Source: Arenibacter amylolyticus
GTDB lineage: Bacteria > Bacteroidota > Bacteroidia > Flavobacteriales > Flavobacteriaceae
Length of the DNA: 64,000 nucleotides
Assembly: GCF_002150785.1 (NCBI RefSeq)
Contig: NZ_MTAZ01000005.1
Coordinates: forward strand, 1-64,000
Direction of reading: 5' to 3'
In this document: positions 49,440-60,993 of the stretch, one piece after another
Numbering within the stretch: position 1 is the stretch's first letter
How the letters are laid out: each line of letters starts with the position of its first letter
Notes under the pieces: generated by a model
What the model saw: the letters and a program-made list of their open reading frames with translations, nothing else
Databases searched by the model: none
What the model was told of the DNA's origin: nothing
Position numbers and translations under genes: made by a program

Positions 49440-51770
49440 TTGCTAAAGAGACCTTTAATTTTATATTTCATCAGCTTGCTGATCCTTCCCTTGATGGGGA
49501 AGGGCGTTGCGCAAGAATACTCCCTGCTTTCCGAGGAAGATAAGTGGAAGCTTAGGTTGCGTTCGCACGTCTTAATCGATATTGATGAGGTGAAAGACTC
49601 CAACTTAGCTACCATAATGCAGGGGAAGGCTCCGCTGGCTGTGTATGTCCCAGAAGCCAGAGAACAATACCAGAGCTTTTTAAAACAGCTAGTTTCAGGG
49701 AAGGATGCCGTGTTGTTATGGGGCGGTAATTCCTTAAAGAATTTGGATTTCTCTATTGATAGTGTATCTGTAGTGCCCATAGATCTGGTAGATGCCCTGC
49801 CGTGGAATGGAAAGGCTAAAGAAGTAGATTCCTTGCAGTTTACTGTGAGTAAAGAGCTAAGCTTGGTGGTGCTGAAGAATGAGCACCCTATGAAGGACAG
49901 TCTCTTGTTGCAACTTTGGAGAGCAATGGGCAGGGTGCCTAACTTTCTACAAGTAGACCCGTCCAAATTCTTAGGGGCCGATAGTTTGGTACAGGAGTTA
50001 AATAAGGTGAAACGGGTTTTTGGGACGGTGAATTCCAAAACGGGACCCTTAAAGGATGTAGGGTTCAAGAATCATAAAAACCTACGGGTGAACGCCTATT
50101 TTAGTCTTCCAATGGAAGCTGTGGATGATTTGCCGGTGTTTATCCCCTATAAAGCAGGATATTATTTCTCCCCAGACATTATTCGTACCACGGCAGATAA
50201 TAGTGGCAATTTAAAAGAGTTTGTCGGCTTTCCTTTAGACCCAGAGTATGGGCTTACCGATCATTTTTCTTTCAGTCCTACGATTAGGAATATTAGCAGA
50301 AAAAATAATAAGGAGCTTATTGTAAATAAGGTTCAATTAGAGGAAGATAGAAATCGTGCTACGGTTGGCTATTTTAATGATGGCGCTTATGTGGATGCCG
50401 GTCTGGATAGTAGAATGGCCTTGCAAGGTAGTTTTACCATCGCAGCATGGATCAAACCAACTGTCCTCAGTAACAACAACAGTATTTTGGGCAAGGGGGA
50501 GAATTTTGTGTTAAAGCTACATAAAGGCTTTCTTACTTTCACAATGGCCGATATAAAAGACTATATCTCCCGCTCCTCTCCGGTCCCGGTGGACCAATGG
50601 ACTCATGTAGCCCTAGTGCATTCCAAATGGAACCACGAGCTTTCCTTTTTTATAAACGGGGTGCAGACAGATAAAATCCAGTTGATTGAGGATTATGATA
50701 CCTCGGACTATAACTTGGTGGTAGGGAGTAATTTGTGGCAAGAGTTTTTCATCGGTTATCTAGATGATATTAAAATATGGGATCGGGAACTTAATCCCTC
50801 TGAAATAAAAGAGGAATTCAAGGGAGACTCCATCGCGAAGGCCAAGGGGTTAAGCGGATTTCTTATACCACTAATTGTGATAGGGCTGCTCCTGTTGGTG
50901 TTTTCGCTGTATAGTTATTGGAGAAGAAAACGGACCATAGGGAAGGCTGGCGAGCCCGTTGCTACTTCTATAGTAGCTGCAAGGCAGGTAAATCCTAATG
51001 TGGAGCAGGAACGTGCGACCTTTGTGGAGAGTATCCACTGCTTTGGTCCTCTTAAGATTATCTTAGGAGACGGGGCCGATATCGCAAAAAAGCTTTCCCC
51101 TAAGCTTAAACAGCTCTTTCTTGTTGTGCTGTTGTATAGTGTGGGGGATAGGAAGGGGATTAGCACCAAAAAACTTACCGAATATCTTTGGCCTGGAATG
51201 AGTCCAAGCAGGGCCAAAAATACCCGAGGGACCAATATTCAGAATCTAAGGGCAATATTGGCTGCTTCCACTACCATTCAATTGGTCTTTAAGGATAGGC
51301 ACTGGGTGCTAGAAATAGGGGATGACTGTTTCTGTGAATACAGGGAGGTGCTCTATTACCTAGATTTCTTCCTTAAGACGGATATTGGGGTTATGCAATT
51401 AGAGAAAATCTTGCCAAAACTACTGACTATCCTTAAGGAAGAACGCTTTTTGGCGAATATAGAGGATGCTTGGTTAGATCCCTTTGTGGAAGAATTAAGT
51501 AATAGGGTATTGGAAGTCTGCCAAGAAGTTGTATCCAAGTTATCGTTGGAGGAACATCAGGTACTACTCCAAGATTTGGCGCAAGTGATGTATATCTATG
51601 ACGATTTAAATGAAAATGCCCTGCAGTTAAAATTAAAAATACTAATTCTCCAAGGGAAACTAAGTACAGCCCATTCGGTCTATGACAAATTTTCCAAATT
51701 GTATCAAAAACTTTACGGGGAAACTTACCCTGTGAAATTTGAGGAGATCGTTGGAAATTCTATGGTCTAA
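49440..51770 (+). CDS. Membrane-bound LamG-SARP-type transcriptional regulator
   Basis: 776 residues from TTG at 49440; a stop codon 6 nt upstream excludes earlier starts, and an ATT or later start is possible. Order: signal/anchor helix (LILYFISLLILPLMGKGVAQ), an extracytoplasmic region to about 300, a LamG/concanavalin-like jelly roll (about 310-460; FTIAAWIKPTVLSNNNSIL, FFIGYLDDIKIWDRELNPSE), a helix at about 475-495 (LIPLIVIGLLLLVFSLYSYW), then a cytoplasmic winged-helix domain (about 532-635; STKKLTEYLWPGMSPSRAKN) and a helical BTAD-like tail (640-776). The last two are typical of SARP-type activators. This is a one-component sensor: lectin outside, DNA binding inside. It precedes the 3-keto-glycoside genes and probably controls them. 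Confidence 0.75.
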   Translation: MLKRPLILYFISLLILPLMGKGVAQEYSLLSEEDKWKLRLRSHVLIDIDEVKDSNLATIMQGKAPLAVYVPEAREQYQSFLKQLVSGKDAVLLWGGNSLKNLDFSIDSVSVVPIDLVDALPWNGKAKEVDSLQFTVSKELSLVVLKNEHPMKDSLLLQLWRAMGRVPNFLQVDPSKFLGADSLVQELNKVKRVFGTVNSKTGPLKDVGFKNHKNLRVNAYFSLPMEAVDDLPVFIPYKAGYYFSPDIIRTTADNSGNLKEFVGFPLDPEYGLTDHFSFSPTIRNISRKNNKELIVNKVQLEEDRNRATVGYFNDGAYVDAGLDSRMALQGSFTIAAWIKPTVLSNNNSILGKGENFVLKLHKGFLTFTMADIKDYISRSSPVPVDQWTHVALVHSKWNHELSFFINGVQTDKIQLIEDYDTSDYNLVVGSNLWQEFFIGYLDDIKIWDRELNPSEIKEEFKGDSIAKAKGLSGFLIPLIVIGLLLLVFSLYSYWRRKRTIGKAGEPVATSIVAARQVNPNVEQERATFVESIHCFGPLKIILGDGADIAKKLSPKLKQLFLVVLLYSVGDRKGISTKKLTEYLWPGMSPSRAKNTRGTNIQNLRAILAASTTIQLVFKDRHWVLEIGDDCFCEYREVLYYLDFFLKTDIGVMQLEKILPKLLTILKEERFLANIEDAWLDPFVEELSNRVLEVCQEVVSKLSLEEHQVLLQDLAQVMYIYDDLNENALQLKLKILILQGKLSTAHSVYDKFSKLYQKLYGETYPVKFEEIVGNSMV

Positions 51771-51919
51771 TCCTCATTTTGTGAATGGTTTTTAGAAACA
51801 TTTCACTTTTCCTGTAAATATTACCCCAAATATTACCCCTATTTTTACGCAGTGTGGTGTTTCTTTGACGAAGTAAATAGCACATATTCATATAATTAAT
51901 AGAAATAGTATAGGAATCG

Positions 51920-53188
51920 ATGAAGAAAAATTCAACAAGCCGGAGGGATTTCGTAAGAAAATCCCTTGTGGCAGCTGCAGGGATCAGTATTATTCCAAGA
52001 CATGTAATGGGGGGAACCAATTTTATAGCCCCAAGTGACCAATTAACAAAAGCGGTTATTGGAGTAGGAGGCATGGGACAAGGCCATTTAACTTATGAAG
52101 GAACCAGACTATTGGCCATTTGTGATGCCGATGCCAATCACTTGGCCAATACCCTAAAAAAGGTTGGTAGTGGGGTAACCGGATATCGCGATTTTCGTGA
52201 GGTGTTGCAGCGCCCGGATGTCGATATCGTACATATTGCCACACCACCGCATTGGCACGGATTAATGTCTATTATGGCTGCAGAGGCTGGTAAGGACGTT
52301 TGGTGCGAAAAACCAATGACCAGAACCATTGGGGAAGGTAAAAAAGTGGTGGAGGCCATGGAACAACACGGGAAAATGTTCCGTTTAAATACTTGGTTCC
52401 GATTTAAAGATAACTTTTACGGCATGGGTACCCCAGTAAGAAAATTAAAGAAGGTAGTAGATAGTGGTGCCTTGGGATGGCCGCTAAAAGTTACCATTAG
52501 TGGGGTTACTGGGTTTAACTGGAAATTCTATTGGGTGGGAAAGGAAAATTTAACCCCGCAGCCCGTACCTTCAGAGTTAGATTACAATATGTGGTTGGGT
52601 CCAGCTCCGGAGAAGCCGTATCACCCACACAGGGTACATGGTACTTTTAGAGGGTATTGGGATTATGACGGTGGTGGTCTTGGCGATATGGGCCAGCACT
52701 ACATAGATCCTGTGCAGTATTTCCTAGGGAAGGATAATACCAGCCCGGTAAAAGTGGAAGTAGATGCCCCAGAACAACATTATGATGCCATCGGTACCTG
52801 GAGAAAAGTAGTCTATACGTATGCAGATGGATGTCAAATTATTCTTGATGGAGAGAACAAAGACAAGGATGCTGCCTATATAGAAGGACCTAATGGAAAG
52901 ATCTATAACGGATTTAAGTCTACCATCCCAAATATTGAAGGTTTAATCAATAGTATGCCCGATCCTGAAGAGCAGATTACCGAATTCTCGGAATCGGTAA
53001 GAACGAGACAGAAATTTGCCTTGAACGAGGTAAACGGCCATAGATCTTGTACTGTTGTAAATATGGGGCTTATTGCCTTGCGTTTAGGACGTACCTTAGA
53101 GTTTGATCCGGTGAAGCAGGAATTTATCAATGATGAGGAGGCCAATAGACTGATCGATCAACCCATGAGAACCTCTTGGGCATATTAA
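51920..53188 (+). CDS. Gfo/Idh/MocA family oxidoreductase, Tat-exported
   Basis: 422 residues. The N-terminus STSRRDFVRKSLVAAAGISI is a twin-arginine signal, so the folded enzyme is exported. A Rossmann fold follows with KAVIGVGGMGQGHLTYEG, the catalytic Lys is in WCEKPMTRTIGEGK, and the C-terminal substrate domain has GGGLGDMGQHYIDPVQYFLG with its His. Relatives in Bacteroidetes oxidise the C3 hydroxyl of glycosides with a bound nicotinamide cofactor. It is 21 nt before the DUF1080 protein, so the two form an operon and the likely pathway is oxidation, then cleavage of the 3-keto-glycoside. Confidence 0.85.
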   Translation: MKKNSTSRRDFVRKSLVAAAGISIIPRHVMGGTNFIAPSDQLTKAVIGVGGMGQGHLTYEGTRLLAICDADANHLANTLKKVGSGVTGYRDFREVLQRPDVDIVHIATPPHWHGLMSIMAAEAGKDVWCEKPMTRTIGEGKKVVEAMEQHGKMFRLNTWFRFKDNFYGMGTPVRKLKKVVDSGALGWPLKVTISGVTGFNWKFYWVGKENLTPQPVPSELDYNMWLGPAPEKPYHPHRVHGTFRGYWDYDGGGLGDMGQHYIDPVQYFLGKDNTSPVKVEVDAPEQHYDAIGTWRKVVYTYADGCQIILDGENKDKDAAYIEGPNGKIYNGFKSTIPNIEGLINSMPDPEEQITEFSESVRTRQKFALNEVNGHRSCTVVNMGLIALRLGRTLEFDPVKQEFINDEEANRLIDQPMRTSWAY

Positions 53189-53209
53189 TCAATAAGAAGA
53201 ATTTATACG

Positions 53210-56200
53210 ATGAATAATTTATATAAAACCATAAGTGTGCTATTGTTGTTCGTTAGCGCACAAGTTATCAATGCACAGGACAACAGAACCTTAGATACCA
53301 AGGTTGCTGATATTTTGGCACAATTGCCAACGGAAGATTTGGAGCATTCCGATCGATTGATGCAAGAGCTTATAGAACTAGGGGAAAATGGAATACTGAA
53401 ATTTACCGATAGGTTAATTCCCCTGGGAACAGGAGATGATACCAAAGTACGATACGCCATAAACAGCCTAGCAATTTATAGCGGTGGATTGCAGCCTGCG
53501 ATAGAAAACGGCGTAGTAGAAAATGCGTTGTTAAAAGCGCTGAATAAGGCTTCGGACCATGAGGTGAAAACCTTTCTTATAGATAGACTCATCTATTGCG
53601 GGACAGATGCTTCGGTAGCGACCTTAAGCGAATTGCTAAAGAACGATGCACTTTATAAGCCAGTTCTTGCTGCCCTTACTTCTATCGGAACAGAGAATGC
53701 TGCCAATGCCATATTGGATGCTGCCAATTATGCGGCAGGGGATAAGTTGGCCGACTTGCTTCATGCCTTGGGAACGCTAGAGTTTGCTCCTGCAGTTGAT
53801 GCCATATACACGGCACTTTCTTCCTCTTCTAAGGCAGTGCAGCAGCAAGGCTTAATGGCACTGGCCAATATTGCAAGTCCTGCTTCTTACGAAGTGCTAG
53901 AAAAATGGGCTGCCAAGTCTAACTTTCAATTAGACGACACCAAAAGTATTATAGCCTTTATCCATTATGGAAATACCCTCCAGAAACAAGCTAATAAGGC
54001 CTTGAGTAATAAGGTTGCCAATACCCTGCTTAAAGAATGCAAGAGCGAGGATCAATTGCATTTTAGGTCTGCCGGAGTGCACATCTTAAATAAAAATGAA
54101 GGTAGGGGTGCTACTAGAATATTGCTGAAGGAATCCAGAAATAAAAATACCGCCTATGTAGGTGCTGTTTTGGATGCTGCGGGGGAAGAGTTATCATCTG
54201 CTGAGGTGGCCAAATGGGCAAAACAATATAGGAGGGCTGCTGCGGAAACCAAGCCCTTACTTATCAGAATGCTAGCCAAAAACAAGGAAGAGGTAGTGTT
54301 TCAATCGGTTCTCCTAAGAGCTGTGAAGGATAAGGATGTTGCGGTGCGTATTGCCGGAATTAAAGCATTGTCTTACCAGGACAAATCCAAGGCTTTGCCC
54401 GTATTGTTCAACAGTTTATTAACTGCCAAATCTCCTAAAGCCTTATTGGCTATTGAAGAAACCTTGTTGAGGTTGGTTAGCGCAGAGGACAACCAGTTGT
54501 TGGCAGATCAACTGGCCGTAGTAGGAGAAGAAGCCAAGGTAGTATTGGTAAATGTATTGTCGGCCAGAGATGCCAAGGAGCAGTTTAATACCCTTCTTTC
54601 GCTACTAAATCAAGGAAGTGAAAAAGTGAATACAGCCGTTTACCAAGCTCTGCCGTCCATAAGTGCGGAAAAAGATTTACCTGTACTATTAGGACTGCTT
54701 AGTAAAACGGATCAAGAGAATCAAATAGGAAACGTTCAGCGAGCGTTGCTTCAAATTGTAAATAATGGGAACGGTAAATTCTCCAATACCCTATACGAGG
54801 CATACGATGCAGCATCGGATAAGACTAAGTTGTTGCCGGTGTTGGCTTCCTTAAGTAGTGATAAGGCATTGAAGTTGGTTTCCCATCAATTGTCTACTGG
54901 GAAAGATAAGGAAAAGATAGTTGCTCTTAACGCCCTATCCAATTGGAAGAATAATGATGCCATTCCCTACCTATTTCAGTCGGTGAAAAACGCCAAGGAA
55001 GGGGAGATCAGAAAAAAATCTTTTGGAAATTATCTTACCAAAGTAGTCCGCTCCAACTATCCTGACGATCAAAAATTGCTTTTGATTAGGAAATTGATGC
55101 CCGAGGCACAAAACACAGGGGAAAAACAACAGGTATTGAGGGCTGCAAGAAATGTGAAGACCTTCCTTTCTTTGGTCTTTGTGTCCGAGTACCTAAATGA
55201 TGAGGAGCTGGTTACTACAGCCTCTAATGCGGCTATTGCCATCGCGCTACCGACCCCAGGTAAGAATAATGGCCTTAGTGGGGATGTGGTGCGTGATATT
55301 GTTTCTAGGAGCGTAGATAACTTAACCGGTCCTGATAGCCAGTATATTAAAATTGACGTAAGGGAGTTTTTAAATAATATGTCCAATGACCCAGGTTTTC
55401 TTTCCATTTTTAATGGAAAAGACTTTACAGGTTGGGAAGGCTTGGTGCAAAACCCGATTGCACGATCCAAAATGTCTGCCAAGCAACTGGCAAGGGAGCA
55501 GGCAAAAGCCAATGAGCAGATGATGAGGGATTGGTATATAGAGGATGGTGTTATTGGTTTTAAAGGAGAAGGATATAACAATATCTGTACGATTAAGGAT
55601 TATGGCGATTTTGAAATGATCATAGACTGGAAAATTACCAATGGTGGGGATTCCGGAATTTACTTAAGAGGTACTCCACAAGTACAGATTTGGGATACTG
55701 CCCTAGTAAAAGTAGGCGCCCAAGTAGGGTCTGGCGGACTCTATAATAACCAGAAGCACGAGAGCGATCCGTTGGTGGTTGCAGATAATCCGGTGGATGA
55801 GTGGAATACGTTTAGAATTAAGATGGTAGGAGAACGGGTTACCGTTTATCTAAATGGGGTGCTGGTAACGGATAATGTAGTTTTAGAAAACTACTGGGAT
55901 CGTAGCCAATCCATCTTTCCAAAAGAAGCCATAGAATTGCAGGCGCACGGAGAAGATCTCGGTTTTAGAAATATCTACGTAAGGGAAATAAGCTCTGGAG
56001 GCGATCAATTGTCCGATGCTGAAAAGAAAGACGGATTTAAATCGTTGCTTACTGGAAAGGAATTGGACCATTGGACGGGAAATAAAACCGATTATATTGT
56101 GGAAAACAATGAGTTGCTGGTGCGCCCAAAACAAGGAGGCCATGGTAACCTATATACCATCGAAGAGTATTCGGATTTTATCTTTAGGTTCGATTTTAAA

Positions 56201-56611
56201 CTAACTCCTGGTGCTAACAATGGTTTAGGGATTCATGCCCCTCTTACCGGAGATGTTGCCTATGTAGGGAAAGAATTGCAGATCTTGGACGATACTGCCG
56301 AGATATATGCCAACTTAGAGCCCTACCAGTACCATGGTTCGGTATATGGGATTATGGCTGCCCAAAGAGGCGCATTAAATCCGGTTGGGGAATGGAATTC
56401 CCAAGAGGTGATTGTAAAGGGAGATCATATAAAGATTACCCTAAACGGAAAAGTAATCTTGGACGGGAATATAAAGGAGGCCACCAAAAATGGGACCTTG
56501 GATAAAAAAGATCACCCAGGATTGTTAAGGAAAAAAGGACATATCGCTTTTCTGGGACATGGCTCAGAACTAGCCTTTAGAAACATTAGAATAAAGGATC
56601 TGTCCAAATAA
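53210..56611 (+). CDS. HEAT-repeat protein with two 3-keto-disaccharide hydrolase (DUF1080) domains
   Basis: 1133 residues. Signal peptide (KTISVLLLFVSAQVINAQ). Residues about 25-700 are helical HEAT-like repeats (ALTSIGTENAANAILDAANY and VRIAGIKALSYQDKSKALPV are sample units). Then two related DUF1080 jelly rolls: first at about 727-930 (GFLSIFNGKDFTGWEGLV, GDFEMIIDWKITNGGDSGIY, YLNGVLVTDNVVLENYWD), second at about 942-1131 (GFKSLLTGKELDHWTGNK, FIFRFDFKLTPGANNGLGIH, LNGKVILDGNIKEATKNG). DUF1080 proteins have been found to cleave 3-keto-glycosides. The layout with an upstream Gfo/Idh dehydrogenase fits a two-step envelope pathway. Two domains could act on different sugars or one could be only binding; the sequence does not say. 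Confidence 0.82.
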   Translation: MNNLYKTISVLLLFVSAQVINAQDNRTLDTKVADILAQLPTEDLEHSDRLMQELIELGENGILKFTDRLIPLGTGDDTKVRYAINSLAIYSGGLQPAIENGVVENALLKALNKASDHEVKTFLIDRLIYCGTDASVATLSELLKNDALYKPVLAALTSIGTENAANAILDAANYAAGDKLADLLHALGTLEFAPAVDAIYTALSSSSKAVQQQGLMALANIASPASYEVLEKWAAKSNFQLDDTKSIIAFIHYGNTLQKQANKALSNKVANTLLKECKSEDQLHFRSAGVHILNKNEGRGATRILLKESRNKNTAYVGAVLDAAGEELSSAEVAKWAKQYRRAAAETKPLLIRMLAKNKEEVVFQSVLLRAVKDKDVAVRIAGIKALSYQDKSKALPVLFNSLLTAKSPKALLAIEETLLRLVSAEDNQLLADQLAVVGEEAKVVLVNVLSARDAKEQFNTLLSLLNQGSEKVNTAVYQALPSISAEKDLPVLLGLLSKTDQENQIGNVQRALLQIVNNGNGKFSNTLYEAYDAASDKTKLLPVLASLSSDKALKLVSHQLSTGKDKEKIVALNALSNWKNNDAIPYLFQSVKNAKEGEIRKKSFGNYLTKVVRSNYPDDQKLLLIRKLMPEAQNTGEKQQVLRAARNVKTFLSLVFVSEYLNDEELVTTASNAAIAIALPTPGKNNGLSGDVVRDIVSRSVDNLTGPDSQYIKIDVREFLNNMSNDPGFLSIFNGKDFTGWEGLVQNPIARSKMSAKQLAREQAKANEQMMRDWYIEDGVIGFKGEGYNNICTIKDYGDFEMIIDWKITNGGDSGIYLRGTPQVQIWDTALVKVGAQVGSGGLYNNQKHESDPLVVADNPVDEWNTFRIKMVGERVTVYLNGVLVTDNVVLENYWDRSQSIFPKEAIELQAHGEDLGFRNIYVREISSGGDQLSDAEKKDGFKSLLTGKELDHWTGNKTDYIVENNELLVRPKQGGHGNLYTIEEYSDFIFRFDFKLTPGANNGLGIHAPLTGDVAYVGKELQILDDTAEIYANLEPYQYHGSVYGIMAAQRGALNPVGEWNSQEVIVKGDHIKITLNGKVILDGNIKEATKNGTLDKKDHPGLLRKKGHIAFLGHGSELAFRNIRIKDLSK

Positions 56612-56740: not shown

Positions 56741-59302
56741 CTAAAAATTCATCCTAAAACTTACATTAGGGGTAACCCCTAATGACACCCTATTGATAGT
56801 TTCTATTTCGTTTTCATCGTTTAAACGATAGTAGGTGTTAAGAATGTTCTTTTTGTTCAATATATTCAATACGGAAGCACCAACGGTGGCCTTTATACTA
56901 CTTCCCAAATTAAAATTATAAAGAAAGGATGCGTCTGCCCTTAGGTATGCTGGCAACCTGCTACTATTGGGTTCCTGGTAATTTATTCTATTGGGAAAGG
57001 TGCTGGTGTCTATGGCATTGTTTCCCTCCTGTGGTTGGGTGTAAGGTTTTCCGGTGCGGTAGTTGGCTCCTAGTCCAATCTTAAAATCATTAATGGTGTA
57101 GGTGCCGGCAAAGGTAATGGTATGCCGTATGTCTAAATTATTGGGGAATGTATGCGGTACAAGGTCCTTAAAATAATAGTTGTTGTAGTTATAGGTATAA
57201 CTTAACCAAGTGCTATAGGTATTGGTTTTTTTGTTGATAAGGAACTCCAGACCAGAAACGTCATAGCTTCCAATTTCACCATTAAATTGATCCTTGTTTT
57301 GAAATCCTTGGGTAGCAGTACTTATACCCTCTACCTTTTTATAGAAACCCTCAAATCCTACATAAAGGTTGTTCTTATCATAGTTGAATCCTAAGGAGGC
57401 TTGTTTGCTCTTGGTAATGGGTAGCTTTTGATTGTCCGATAAAATCCACCTTCTTTTTTCTATGCCTAAAAAGTTTTGCTCTAGATCTATGATCTGGTTA
57501 GAGGTCTGACTCTTAATTTCTGCCAATGCCTCAACTTTTAGATCCCTGGTGATGGCGTAGTTGAGGTTAATCCTAGGCTCTACTAAAAGGGCGTCAAAAG
57601 TGTCGAAAGTTTTTAGATTGTTAATGTAGTTTAATCGGGCACCTCCGCGGGCAAACCATTTGTTATTGGGGGAGCGGTAGGCCAATTCGGAAAAGAAGGA
57701 GTGAGTGAGTATTACACTCTTTATATTGCTTCTATAGGCAGGCTGCGTTACTACGGTCCGGTTGGTAATCCCAGTTTCATTCAATTGGTATCCGTTAAGC
57801 CAATTTAGGGTGTTTCCCAGCTGGTAGTTGGTTTTCAATTTTATGGAATTCTCCAATACTTGGTTGTTTTGGAATAGCTGCTGTGATTCTGAAACCGAAT
57901 TTTGCGTATCCAGATCGTACCGGGTATAGTATGCGTTTAAGTGGCTTGAGAATCGCGGAGTCCAGCTACTTTGTAAGCTCCCTCCAATAGAAAAGTTTTG
58001 CTGTTCTAGAAGACTCTGTTTATGGTCGTTCTCTGTGGTTTCATTGTAGTTGAGGTGATTGTCAATGTGAATAAAACTGACTCTTGCCTTGTGTTTGTCG
58101 TTAATGTCATATAAAATTTTTCCAGTAACATCATAGAAGTAAAAGTCCTCTTTTTGGATAAGGCCCTTATTGTCTTCGGTAGAATTACCAGCTCCCACCT
58201 CACTGTCTTGAAATGCTTTTTCAAAAAACCGGTCATAGGTAGGAGTTTTTAAAAAATCCGTGGTAGATCGCCTTCCGGAGAATTGAAGCGAGACCTTTTC
58301 ACTCACCGGAACGTGTCCAAATACGTCGCCACTCAATAAATTAAAGCCGGCACCTCCTACAAAGTGCTGTTTCACCTTATTTTTGGTCTCTATGCTTATC
58401 ACACTACTTACGCCATCGCCATATTCCGCACTGGTCCCATTTTTTATCAAAGTTACTTTCTCTGTCAAATAGGGATTGAAGGCAGAGATTAACCCGAAGA
58501 AATGCCCGGATTGATACATTTTAATGCCGTCGTAAAGAATTAGGTTTTGATCGTTGGTGCCGCCTCGTACATTGATGTCCGATACTGTTTCGTCTACACT
58601 TTTTATTCCTGGTAGTGCCTGTATGGTTTGCAGTACATCGGGTTCTATAAGGCCTGGTAAAATTCCAATTTTGCCCGTATTTAAAACAATGCTGGCATCC
58701 TCTTCCTTGCTAATTCCCGTTGTTAGAAACTGATATACCACTACCTCGTTCAATTCCTCATAGCGGGTTGCTAAGGGGATTAGGCTGCAAGGCGCAGGCC
58801 CTGCCAATTCTTCCGCAACAATGTATTTGGTCTTGTATCCTAGATGCTTAATAGCGATATATGCTTTTCTAGGGATGCCAGAGAGGTGAAACTGACCATT
58901 GGTATCCGTAATAATGTGTTTGGGGGTGCCCAATACCTCAATCGTGGCACTGCTTAGGGTGCTGTTCTCAAAATTATCTACCACCAATCCGCATATATCC
59001 ACCAGCGGATCTTTCACAATCGTATAGTAGCGGTTGTTGAGCTTTGAGATTCTCAGGCCTGTTTGGACCTCTAGATCCTTAAGTATTTCATCCAATAACT
59101 GGGAGGCGGGTAGGGTAACCCTAATAGAGCGGATATCGTCATCTATAAAAGAGAATTTTACGTTATGCTCCCTTTCCAGTTGCTCTATATAGGGTGTAAG
59201 GGGTAGAATTTGGGGGGAATTTTCCTGGGTGCTTCCCATAAATGGAACAAAGAGAAGCGAAAAATAGATTAAAACTGCAACGTATTTAGGGCGTCTCATC
59301 AT
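56741..59302 (-). CDS. TonB-dependent receptor with STN signalling domain (FecA-like)
   Basis: 853 residues if translation starts at the ATG at 59302 (MMRRPKYVAV); the open frame runs 10 codons further up, inside fecR. Signal peptide, then an STN-type secretin/TonB N-domain (about 35-105; LTPYIEQLEREHNVKFSFID and LDEILKDLEVQTGLRISKLN), a carboxypeptidase-regulatory-like domain (CGLVVDNFENSTLSSATIEV), the plug (NVRGGTNDQNLILYDGIKMY, EKVTLIKNGTSAEYGDGVSS) and the barrel ending in NVSFRMNF. The STN domain usually relays substrate binding to the FecR anti-sigma protein encoded just upstream. Start overlaps the fecR end (ATGATGAGACGCCCTAA), so the two are translationally coupled. Confidence 0.9.
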   Translation of the reverse strand: MMRRPKYVAVLIYFSLLFVPFMGSTQENSPQILPLTPYIEQLEREHNVKFSFIDDDIRSIRVTLPASQLLDEILKDLEVQTGLRISKLNNRYYTIVKDPLVDICGLVVDNFENSTLSSATIEVLGTPKHIITDTNGQFHLSGIPRKAYIAIKHLGYKTKYIVAEELAGPAPCSLIPLATRYEELNEVVVYQFLTTGISKEEDASIVLNTGKIGILPGLIEPDVLQTIQALPGIKSVDETVSDINVRGGTNDQNLILYDGIKMYQSGHFFGLISAFNPYLTEKVTLIKNGTSAEYGDGVSSVISIETKNKVKQHFVGGAGFNLLSGDVFGHVPVSEKVSLQFSGRRSTTDFLKTPTYDRFFEKAFQDSEVGAGNSTEDNKGLIQKEDFYFYDVTGKILYDINDKHKARVSFIHIDNHLNYNETTENDHKQSLLEQQNFSIGGSLQSSWTPRFSSHLNAYYTRYDLDTQNSVSESQQLFQNNQVLENSIKLKTNYQLGNTLNWLNGYQLNETGITNRTVVTQPAYRSNIKSVILTHSFFSELAYRSPNNKWFARGGARLNYINNLKTFDTFDALLVEPRINLNYAITRDLKVEALAEIKSQTSNQIIDLEQNFLGIEKRRWILSDNQKLPITKSKQASLGFNYDKNNLYVGFEGFYKKVEGISTATQGFQNKDQFNGEIGSYDVSGLEFLINKKTNTYSTWLSYTYNYNNYYFKDLVPHTFPNNLDIRHTITFAGTYTINDFKIGLGANYRTGKPYTQPQEGNNAIDTSTFPNRINYQEPNSSRLPAYLRADASFLYNFNLGSSIKATVGASVLNILNKKNILNTYYRLNDENEIETINRVSLGVTPNVSFRMNF

Positions 59303-60200
59303 AGAACAGCACTTTATTGCCTTCCAGTACATATTTCATGCCAGAAGGAGCACTTATACTATGCAACGCTAGATTTTTGTCTGTATTGCTGAATGACCCT
59401 GTAAATAATTGATTTAAGTCGATATTCTTGGTTTCTACCTCTACGTCAAATTGTCGCTCCAATTCTTGCAGAACAAATTTTAAAGGAACGCTTTTAAAGG
59501 AACTTTCCTGAAGTAACCAAGAAGGTTGTTGCGCCTCTGCTATGGTATAGGTTGTTAATTGTCCGTTGATGACCATAAGGGCTTGGCCTGCGGGAAGTTC
59601 AATGTCTTTTTCTTTATAACGTACGCTTACCAATCCTTCATAACAGCTCACCTCAAAGAAATCTTCTCTGTTTTCTACATTAAACTGGGTCCCAAGCACT
59701 CTTACTACCCCCATATTGGTAGTAACGCGAAAGGTTTCCCCTTTAGCTACCTTAAAGAAGGCTTCCCCTTCTAAAACGATATTTCTGTTTTTCTCCCATT
59801 TCTTTTTTTGGTAAGAAATCTTGGAGCCGGCGTTTAATAGCACCTCGGAATTATCCGGGAGGGTAACTGCGGCCCGTTCTGCATACTGGGTACTTACAAC
59901 CTGATCCATGGAAGCGGTGTTGTAAAAATAAGAGATACCAACCACCAATGCTATTACCGCTGCAATTCGCAGGTATTTTTTGAAAGAATCCAAAGTAACC
60001 ACCTTACCGCCTTGGTCACTGTTCTTCCTATGATCCAGGTCGTGCTTAGCTTTGGCTATATCAAATTCCGGCGCTTCCATTGAAGCGGTGGCGTCCACTA
60101 TTTTTTTATAGGTCGCATATTCCTTGGTGGCCTTAAACTTGGTGACCTCCTCCTCGGAAAGCTCGTTGTTGAGCCACTTTGCCAAATAATTTTCTTCCAT
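59286..60200 (-). CDS. FecR-family anti-sigma factor
   Basis: 304 residues. A short cytoplasmic N-terminus with acidic/helical features (MEENYLAKWLNNELSEEEVT) precedes a single membrane helix at about 77-100 (YLRIAAVIALVVGISYFYNT). The periplasmic FecR domain contains AAVTLPDNSEVLLNAGSKIS, LEGEAFFKVAKGETFRV and VLGTQFNVENREDFFEVS. A C-terminal DUF4974/STN-like domain has SFKSVPLKFVLQELERQFDV and GSFSNTDKNLALHSIS. It should hold the ECF sigma factor encoded upstream and release it when the TonB receptor downstream signals. The gap to the sigma gene (280 nt) is unusually large and contains heptamer repeats. Confidence 0.92.
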   Translation of the reverse strand: MEENYLAKWLNNELSEEEVTKFKATKEYATYKKIVDATASMEAPEFDIAKAKHDLDHRKNSDQGGKVVTLDSFKKYLRIAAVIALVVGISYFYNTASMDQVVSTQYAERAAVTLPDNSEVLLNAGSKISYQKKKWEKNRNIVLEGEAFFKVAKGETFRVTTNMGVVRVLGTQFNVENREDFFEVSCYEGLVSVRYKEKDIELPAGQALMVINGQLTTYTIAEAQQPSWLLQESSFKSVPLKFVLQELERQFDVEVETKNIDLNQLFTGSFSNTDKNLALHSISAPSGMKYVLEGNKVLFYDETP

Positions 60201-60340
60201 GGTAATCTGCTTTATATCAGTATAACAACTTAAAGAGTGGAAACCCTACCATTAATGTTGAGATATTTATATTGTGTTGAGATTTGATTTTTATTAAAAC
60301 GCTTTGATGCCATTTTTAGTAACTAATAACTAGTAGGTGG

Positions 60341-60361
60341 TATTCAGTTTTCAGGCAGCAA
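60341..60361 (+). repeat. Short inverted heptamer tract near the main array
   Basis: TATTCAG, TTTTCAG, GCAGCAA (60341-60361). On the minus strand these read CTGAATA, CTGAAAA and TTGCTGC, the same unit type as in the rpsE-rpmD tract, and lie opposite to the array at 60404. Confidence 0.45.
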
Positions 60362-60403
60362 TAAAACTGGTGTTAGTCTTGTTTATGCAGGGAAGTTTTA
60401 TTT

Positions 60404-60459
<56 letters not shown>

Positions 60460-60480
60460 TGATCACTTACTACTATAAAA

Positions 60481-60993
60481 TCATATTCCATCAATCTGCT
60501 CCCGAAGCGTTTTCAGAGCTAGATGCATTCTTTTTTCGATGGCTTTAACGCTTACTCCTTCCATTTCCGCGATTTCTGCATATTTTTTTCCATCTATCCG
60601 ATTAAGTAAAAAGGTGGTGCGCTGATTCTCTGGGAGAGCTTGTAGCGCATTGTCTAATTTTTCCTTAAACTCTTGTTGTTCCAAAATAAACTCTGGGGAC
60701 TCATATTCCGTGCTGGGGCCCTTCTCCTTATACTTTAGGCGTACCTTTTCTGCTTTTATTACATTTAGGTACAGGTTGTTGGCTACGGTATAGACAAAAG
60801 ACTTAGCTTTCTGCGGGGAAACCTTGGCACAGTTCTCCCATAGTTTTATAAAAGCTTCCTGTACCGCATCATAAGCCTTCTCCTCATTCCCAAACTTATA
60901 GTATATATAATTGAAAATAGTTTTGGAGTGGGTGCTAAAAATGGATGCGTACACCTCTTCCTCGCAAACATTGTTTATATTATCTGCCTTCAA
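60481..60993 (-). CDS. ECF sigma factor (FecI-like, Bacteroidetes type)
   Basis: 170 residues from TTG at 60993; the in-frame stop at 61018-61020 leaves no ATG upstream. Region 2 is seen in FNYIYYKFGNEEKAYDAVQE with AFIKLWENC, and region 4 in ALQALPENQRTTFLLNRIDG, YAEIAEMEGVSVKAIEKRMH and LALKTLREQIDGI. Such proteins direct RNA polymerase to TonB-receptor or envelope promoters and are regulated by the FecR protein that follows. TATATTTG (61008-61015, minus), an exact -7 element, lies 14 nt before the TTG. The gene is divergent from the lipoprotein at 61098, so a shared 104-bp control region is likely. Confidence 0.93.
   Translation of the reverse strand: MKADNINNVCEEEVYASIFSTHSKTIFNYIYYKFGNEEKAYDAVQEAFIKLWENCAKVSPQKAKSFVYTVANNLYLNVIKAEKVRLKYKEKGPSTEYESPEFILEQQEFKEKLDNALQALPENQRTTFLLNRIDGKKYAEIAEMEGVSVKAIEKRMHLALKTLREQIDGI

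Follow-up and report, generated by a model that had tools for sequence, protein, structure and literature searches.

Organization of the locus and of the regulator

The window, a 64,000-nucleotide stretch of Arenibacter amylolyticus DNA (contig NZ_MTAZ01000005.1, positions 1 to 64,000), carries on its forward strand a transmembrane regulator gene with LamG and SARP-type parts and, directly behind it, two genes for oxidative glycoside cleavage; the regulator and its link to these enzymes are the subject of this work. The regulator gene (positions 49440–51770; 776 residues, TTG start) is separated by 149 nt from a gene for a Gfo/Idh/MocA oxidoreductase with an N-terminus of the twin-arginine translocation (Tat) type (51920–53188; 422 residues; PF19051 and PF01408), which is followed by a gene for a HEAT-repeat protein with two 3-keto-disaccharide hydrolase domains (53210–56611; 1133 residues; PF13646 and PF06439), of the secreted type as judged from its N-terminus. 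The oxidoreductase has an RR motif near its N-terminus and scores 14.2 bits against the Tat signal profile TIGR01409, whose cut-off is 16.7. In the 1133-residue protein, a Pfam scan placed the HEAT repeats first and then two C-terminal stretches of PF06439, a family listed as DUF1080 and now named 3keto-disac_hyd. The Gfo/Idh and 3-keto hydrolase families act in oxidative glycoside cleavage. By its domains (PF19051/PF01408 and the two PF06439 stretches), the pair thus combines an exported Gfo/Idh enzyme with a 3-keto-glycoside hydrolase, the content of an operon of the BT2156–BT2160 type. With 157 bits against a cut-off of 750 for the NCBIfam glycoside 3-dehydrogenase model BT_2158_fam, however, the oxidoreductase is not the same equivalog. 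A preliminary description of this DNA, made from the sequence, had claimed the 149-nt gap and the Tat-signal-type Gfo/Idh and DUF1080 genes in one direction, and the open reading frames (ORFs), the Pfam matches and the RR motif confirm this.

The regulator begins with a hydrophobic N-terminus of the signal-peptide type, which is followed by an N-terminal alpha/beta region, a LamG domain, a membrane helix, the sequence RRKR, a poorly modelled linker, a winged helix and a helical tail. The LamG domain (residues 315–457; positions 50382–50810) matches PF13385 with E 7.6e-24 and contains an FT...KD motif (K373 and D374). A single strong internal hydrophobic stretch at about residues 465–495, with RRKR after it, and a helix in the AlphaFold2 model define the membrane helix (residues 472–496; positions 50853–50927). 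AlphaFold2 models place the winged-helix DNA-binding domain at residues 531–632 (positions 51030–51335), with a predicted recognition helix at residues 589–607 (51204–51260) that includes N594 and T598, and a BTAD-like helical tail at residues 633–765 (51336–51734). Within this tail, residues 670–754 match the BTAD family PF03704 just below the curated cut-off (E 3.7e-4; 21.3 bits versus 22.1). A Pfam scan of the regulator found no kinase or receiver domain. When the full-length model was searched with Foldseek, domain 4 of the arabinanase AbnA ranked first, followed by many unrelated lectin-type proteins; this suggests a common jelly-roll, and we take from it nothing beyond a carbohydrate-binding-type fold. 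Both by LamG_3 and by its C-terminal part, the regulator is the sole match of its kind in its own genome.

A predicted SARP-type fold in the cytoplasmic part

An AlphaFold2 model of residues 531–776, built from 27 aligned relatives, had a mean predicted local distance difference test score of 93.5 and a predicted template-modelling score of 0.87. Foldseek returned six PDB matches at E ≤ 0.001, all of them SARPs (three AfsR and three EmbR chains); the best AfsR match was 8hvr_I (E 6.5e-7, template-modelling score 0.65), and EmbR 2fez was matched with E 5.8e-5. The model therefore predicts an OmpR-type winged helix followed by a BTAD, as in SARPs. This fold search had been named beforehand as a result by which the preliminary description might fall, and what it found was the SARP-type winged helix and BTAD; together with Pfam and hydrophobicity it bears out the proposed 776-residue protein with LamG, one membrane helix, a winged helix and a BTAD tail. 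At a constant offset of 510, picked from the residue numbers in PMC10936776 and not by structural alignment, six of 12 AfsR residues listed as DNA contacts are identical in the regulator (Q48/Q558, W74/W584, P79/P589, S80/S590, T88/T598 and R94/R604), and the other six, R92 and K95 among them, differ.

Tandem heptamers between the regulator and the Gfo/Idh gene

The gap between the regulator and Gfo/Idh genes carries two tandem copies of AAATATTACCCC, with two perfect TTACCCC heptamers at a pitch of 12 bp and a 5-nt spacer (positions 51821–51839); it is the only exact site in the genome. A third, degenerate repeat in the same register, TTACGCA (51845–51851), ends 8 bp before a −7-type promoter box, TTTCTTTG (51860–51867), the Bacteroidota promoter consensus being TAnnTTTG. 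In all 18 loci of the window's clade (L033–L049 and the window; L and G numbers are our labels for loci and genomes), the TTTG of the box starts 24 nt past the second heptamer, and in the 17 of them with Gfo/Idh next the operator lies 44–157 nt from the mechanically called Gfo/Idh start. When 24 promoters were compared, similarity to heptamer 2 was highest at pitch 12 (97 of 168 positions; next best, 61); the third repeat is poor in the branch with TTCACCC.

The equivalent gaps of relatives hold TTACCCC pairs or near variants, and other regulator branches have TTCACCC or TTCCCCC pairs. When identical TT[ACT][ACT]CCC pairs were counted at pitches of 7–40 in 56 loci (55 fetched stretches and the window), 29 pairs were found at pitch 12 (27 loci), five at pitch 24 and none or one at each other pitch. 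After eight near-copy Arenibacter loci were left out (L034–L039, L041 and L042), 21 pitch-12 pairs remained in 19 of 48 loci, all 21 of them intergenic and directly 3′ of a gene of the regulator family; upstream of regulators there was no exact pair except at L155, where one regulator follows another. The 21 pairs include some behind regulators with no LamG match, with three TTAACCC copies in register at L154 and L155 and variant heptamer copies behind the Kelch-type regulators L150 and L153. The conserved tandem operator before Gfo/Idh supports direct control of the operon.

A degenerate pattern, TTMMCCC-N5-TTMMCCC, was discarded as not specific: it had matches in 89 of 299 genomes of the taxonomic family, and the control counts per genome were by eye no lower. 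Exact TTACCCC pairs, among the matches listed, were located at 11 regulator–Gfo/Idh places (own genome included), and elsewhere at one place in a regulator-bearing genome (G094:C22) and at eight in the 275 genomes with no match to the DNA-binding profile. When one mismatch was tolerated, three operator sites were counted in the own genome versus eight of the control, and we therefore claim no wider regulon.

Pairing of the regulator with oxidative enzymes

Using a profile built from the studied loci to call Gfo/Idh, we found that 30 of 36 LamG regulators have a Gfo/Idh gene as their immediate downstream neighbour on the same strand, compared with none of 23 relatives that have the same DNA-binding part, other N-termini and no LamG match, and five of the 732 other ORFs in these loci. 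The co-occurrence on which the preliminary description had staked its case is thus found in most regulators of the LamG type. The pairing is kept with a GH109-type Gfo/Idh at L050 and with Gfo/Idh plus a single-domain 3-keto hydrolase at L055; at L044 Gfo/Idh is missing and the operator precedes a 3-keto hydrolase. Three regulators of another branch (L054, L056 and L060) are only 29–31% identical to that of the window, yet their Gfo/Idh proteins are 87–89% identical to the window's, which suggests regulator replacement at a constant operator type.

Seen from the enzymes, the full-length HEAT hydrolase occurs in 11 of the 299 genomes and is adjoined by the regulator in 10 of the 11; eight further genomes matched the last hydrolase domain only. 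Genome G129, which has the full-length hydrolase, gave no match to the DNA-binding profile, and the roughly 600 nt that precede its Gfo/Idh gene (90% identical) contain no operator-like pair within three mismatches of 14.

Relatives and their sensors

The DNA-binding profile matched at least 24 of the 299 genomes (31 places) and at least 12 of 395 genomes drawn from the phylum (own genome included), both counts being lower bounds from searches that scored limited candidates per genome. Among ten scanned relatives, the sensors were seven Kelch-type propellers, one TPR protein and one LamG, and one relative had no clear sensor. The Kelch beta-propellers take the place of LamG in L141, L142, L147, L150, L151, L153 and L157, and no Gfo/Idh adjoins these seven regulators. 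At L164 (8390–12486), a sulfatase gene lies behind a tandem-LamG regulator and its in-register TTACCCC repeats, apparently the same switch with another target. Two regulators of the family stand in tandem at L155, L158 and L159. In a tree of 50 rows, from which near-copies (L034–L039, L041 and L042, less L035) and short hits (L148 and L161) had been dropped, the LamG regulators with Gfo/Idh do not form one clade; four changes are needed, at least three of them forced by supported branches. The layout of sensor, helix and SARP part looks modular.

A candidate recognition code

Covariation between operator and regulator was examined in the same 50 rows, with heptamer labels assigned by hand (L149 from its first copy only). 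In all 31 regulators for which a heptamer was assigned, T598 goes with C at base 4, and G or V at residue 598 goes with A. Three of 255 columns separate the two base-4 groups, and 598 is the sole one of the three inside the recognition helix. In the labelled regulators, N or S at residue 594 goes with A at base 3 and E with C, although 12 of the 255 columns draw this distinction just as well and the regulators with C all belong to a single clade. Residues 594 and 598 are one helix turn apart, and T598 corresponds by the constant offset to AfsR T88, which contacts a base (PMC10936776). A possible code is that N or S at residue 594 selects A at base 3 and E selects C, and that at residue 598 T selects C at base 4 and G or V selects A.

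A broader proposal would take in all these relatives: transmembrane receptors of the SARP type would form a family in the Bacteroidota in which the periplasmic sensor (LamG, tandem LamG or Kelch) can be exchanged, each receptor would serve the 3′ gene through tandem heptamers of 12-bp pitch with a readable 594/598 code, and the LamG branch would directly sense substrates of the oxidative glycosidases. We hold this to be about evenly balanced between true and false.

A proposed switch and its alternatives

We consider it probable that the regulator is a transmembrane one-component activator of the SARP type that is dedicated to the oxidative glycoside-cleavage operon. This reading draws on what the computations established, namely the anatomy of the protein, its SARP fold, the operator, the promoter geometry, the gene pairing and the agreement between operator bases and the recognition helix; from these we infer ligand binding by LamG, signal transfer and activation. 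The regulator would be anchored in the inner membrane by its one helix with LamG in the periplasm. The ligand of LamG there is probably a glycoside or an oligosaccharide, either a substrate of the exported enzymes encoded next to the regulator or one of their products. The signal would pass through the membrane helix to the cytoplasmic SARP-type winged helix and BTAD, and two or three such domains would align on the heptamers just upstream of the −7 box of Gfo/Idh and, by analogy with AfsR on its 11-bp repeats, recruit RNA polymerase. The operon would then supply the exported Gfo/Idh dehydrogenase and the double 3-keto-glycoside hydrolase for oxidative glycoside cleavage.

A LamG motif, [FL]T...[IVL]KD, is present in all 31 regulators that stand before an oxidative operon (the 30 with Gfo/Idh and L044) and in none of the five LamG regulators elsewhere. 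This distribution fits a ligand tied to the pathway; the five are also distant in the tree. Alternatively, the regulator would still control the operon via the operator, but LamG would have a structural role or bind a cell-wall or other polymer, and the signal would come in through the region N-terminal to LamG or through the state of the envelope. Most relatives do have a conserved region N-terminal to LamG, and in two paralogs the N-terminal 150 residues weakly resemble PI-PLC-X/TIM-barrel proteins below the cut-offs (E 2e-4 in L058 and 0.019 in L052), which gives the impression of a sensor that includes a degenerate enzyme domain. However, this region is short or missing in L051, L054–L056 and L060, LamG is present in 32 of 32 aligned members, and it is the LamG motif that follows the pathway, so that we regard sensing outside LamG as unlikely.

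The operator is close to the promoter, and the regulator might instead be a repressor, or a protein that acts by regulated release of its DNA-binding part, rather than a membrane-bound activator. The SARP fold with BTAD and the repeats upstream of the −7 box at SARP spacing fit activation, however, and repression or regulated release seems to us distinctly improbable.

Beyond the operon, on the reverse strand, a Pfam scan identified genes for a TonB-dependent receptor, a FecR anti-sigma factor and an ECF sigma factor (positions 56741–60993), which could be an outer-membrane uptake route. The same set adjoins the operon in all 10 other Arenibacter loci and flanks it in L054, but control of the operon by this set rather than by the regulator is very hard to credit, given that at other loci of the clade (L040 and L045–L049) it is not among the neighbours while regulator, operator and enzymes stay together, and that the operator accompanies genes of the regulator family irrespective of what lies downstream. 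The preliminary description, which had mentioned neither these genes nor the tandem-heptamer operator, had the pathway switched on with no kinase, sigma factor or anti-sigma factor; that holds for the regulator itself as regards kinase and receiver domains, but an ECF sigma/FecR set does adjoin the operon. Its interpretation is supported in the architecture and the partner genes, and by the operator.

Several points weigh against the proposed activator. Operator binding, activation and ligand are all predicted, from sequence and models. The BTAD lies below the Pfam cut-off and has a match at E ≤ 0.1 in just four of 32 relatives, and sequence and profile searches of PDB sequences with the C-terminal part found no SARP, which came from the fold search only. 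Six of the 36 LamG regulators (L044, L062, L145, L146, L149 and L164) have no Gfo/Idh next, and many of the loci are closely related, 10 of the 36 regulators being Arenibacter orthologs besides that of the window. No heptamer was assigned for 19 of the 50 tree rows. Finally, changing the base contacted by AfsR T88 left binding unimpaired (PMC10936776), and the recognition code may therefore be a coincidence with ancestry. If the activator is real, its operator and predicted code would open the inducers and targets of operons for oxidative glycoside cleavage to direct search and testing.

Comparison with known systems

A published counterpart by gene neighbourhood is BT2160 (SusR4) of Bacteroides, the regulator of the BT2156–BT2160 operon (PMC11879859), in which BT2157 is a 3-ketotrehalose hydrolase (PMC9007349). 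Like the SusR-like regulators, of which BT2160 is one, the protein described here is a membrane protein with a periplasmic sensor and a cytoplasmic DNA-binding part, and BT2160 likewise adjoins a related 3-keto-glycoside operon, BT2156–BT2159 (PMC3878776, PMC11879859, PMC9007349). The two are set apart by the published site description: the predicted SusR-like sites consist of direct repeats with a centre-to-centre distance of 67 or 77 bp (PMC3878776), unlike tandem heptamers at a 12-bp pitch. An operon of this kind with a membrane-bound regulator next to it is therefore not new; the preliminary description had known of no described example of its exact pairing. Neither the LamG sensor nor the tandem operator at 12-bp pitch nor an output of the SARP type was found in the literature searched for such membrane regulators; nor did that search, with most subscription journals outside it, find a paper on a transmembrane SARP with a LamG or Kelch sensor. 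At L045 (15497–17853), genes for a GMC oxidoreductase and a gluconate 2-dehydrogenase subunit 3 lie 3′ of the HEAT hydrolase, a pair that recalls the membrane glycoside 3-dehydrogenase LacABC (discussed in PMC9007349). As in the Bacteroides hybrid two-component systems (PMC3878776), periplasmic glycan sensing would be tied to transcription within one polypeptide. The regulator differs from these systems by having no kinase or receiver domain in its Pfam scan.

In ToxR and CadC the DNA-binding domain is N-terminal and there is no BTAD, unlike the C-terminal domain with BTAD-like tail of the regulator. What is shared is the combination of a sensor, one membrane helix and a winged helix in a single polypeptide (CadC: PMC5430869).

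A close likeness is that to the SARPs AfsR, EmbR and ActII-ORF4, with their winged helix and BTAD fold and heptameric direct repeats upstream of the promoter (PMC10972967, PMC10936776). SARPs activate transcription through contacts with RNA polymerase and sigma, and recruitment of RNA polymerase is likewise proposed for the regulator. Spacers of 4–15 nt between such repeats at the target promoter belong to the SARP definition (PMC10972967), and the sequence here has two heptamers with a 5-nt spacer; the last repeat of SARP promoters is 8 bp from the −10 element (PMC10936776), the spacing found here if the third repeat is real and TTTCTTTG is the −10 counterpart. Unlike SARPs, whose DNA-binding domain is at the N-terminus and whose repeats have a pitch of 11 or 22 bp (PMC10936776), the regulator has its SARP part at the C-terminus, behind a membrane helix and a periplasmic LamG, and a pitch of 12 bp; it also belongs to the Bacteroidota and is partnered by oxidative glycosidases, not antibiotic clusters. 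Because domain order and repeat pitch were compared and differ, we file it as a transmembrane SARP-like regulator and not as a classical SARP. If our reading is correct, activation of the SARP type, which is known from the antibiotic clusters of actinobacteria, would operate in Bacteroidota as well, in the form of a one-protein transmembrane sensor.

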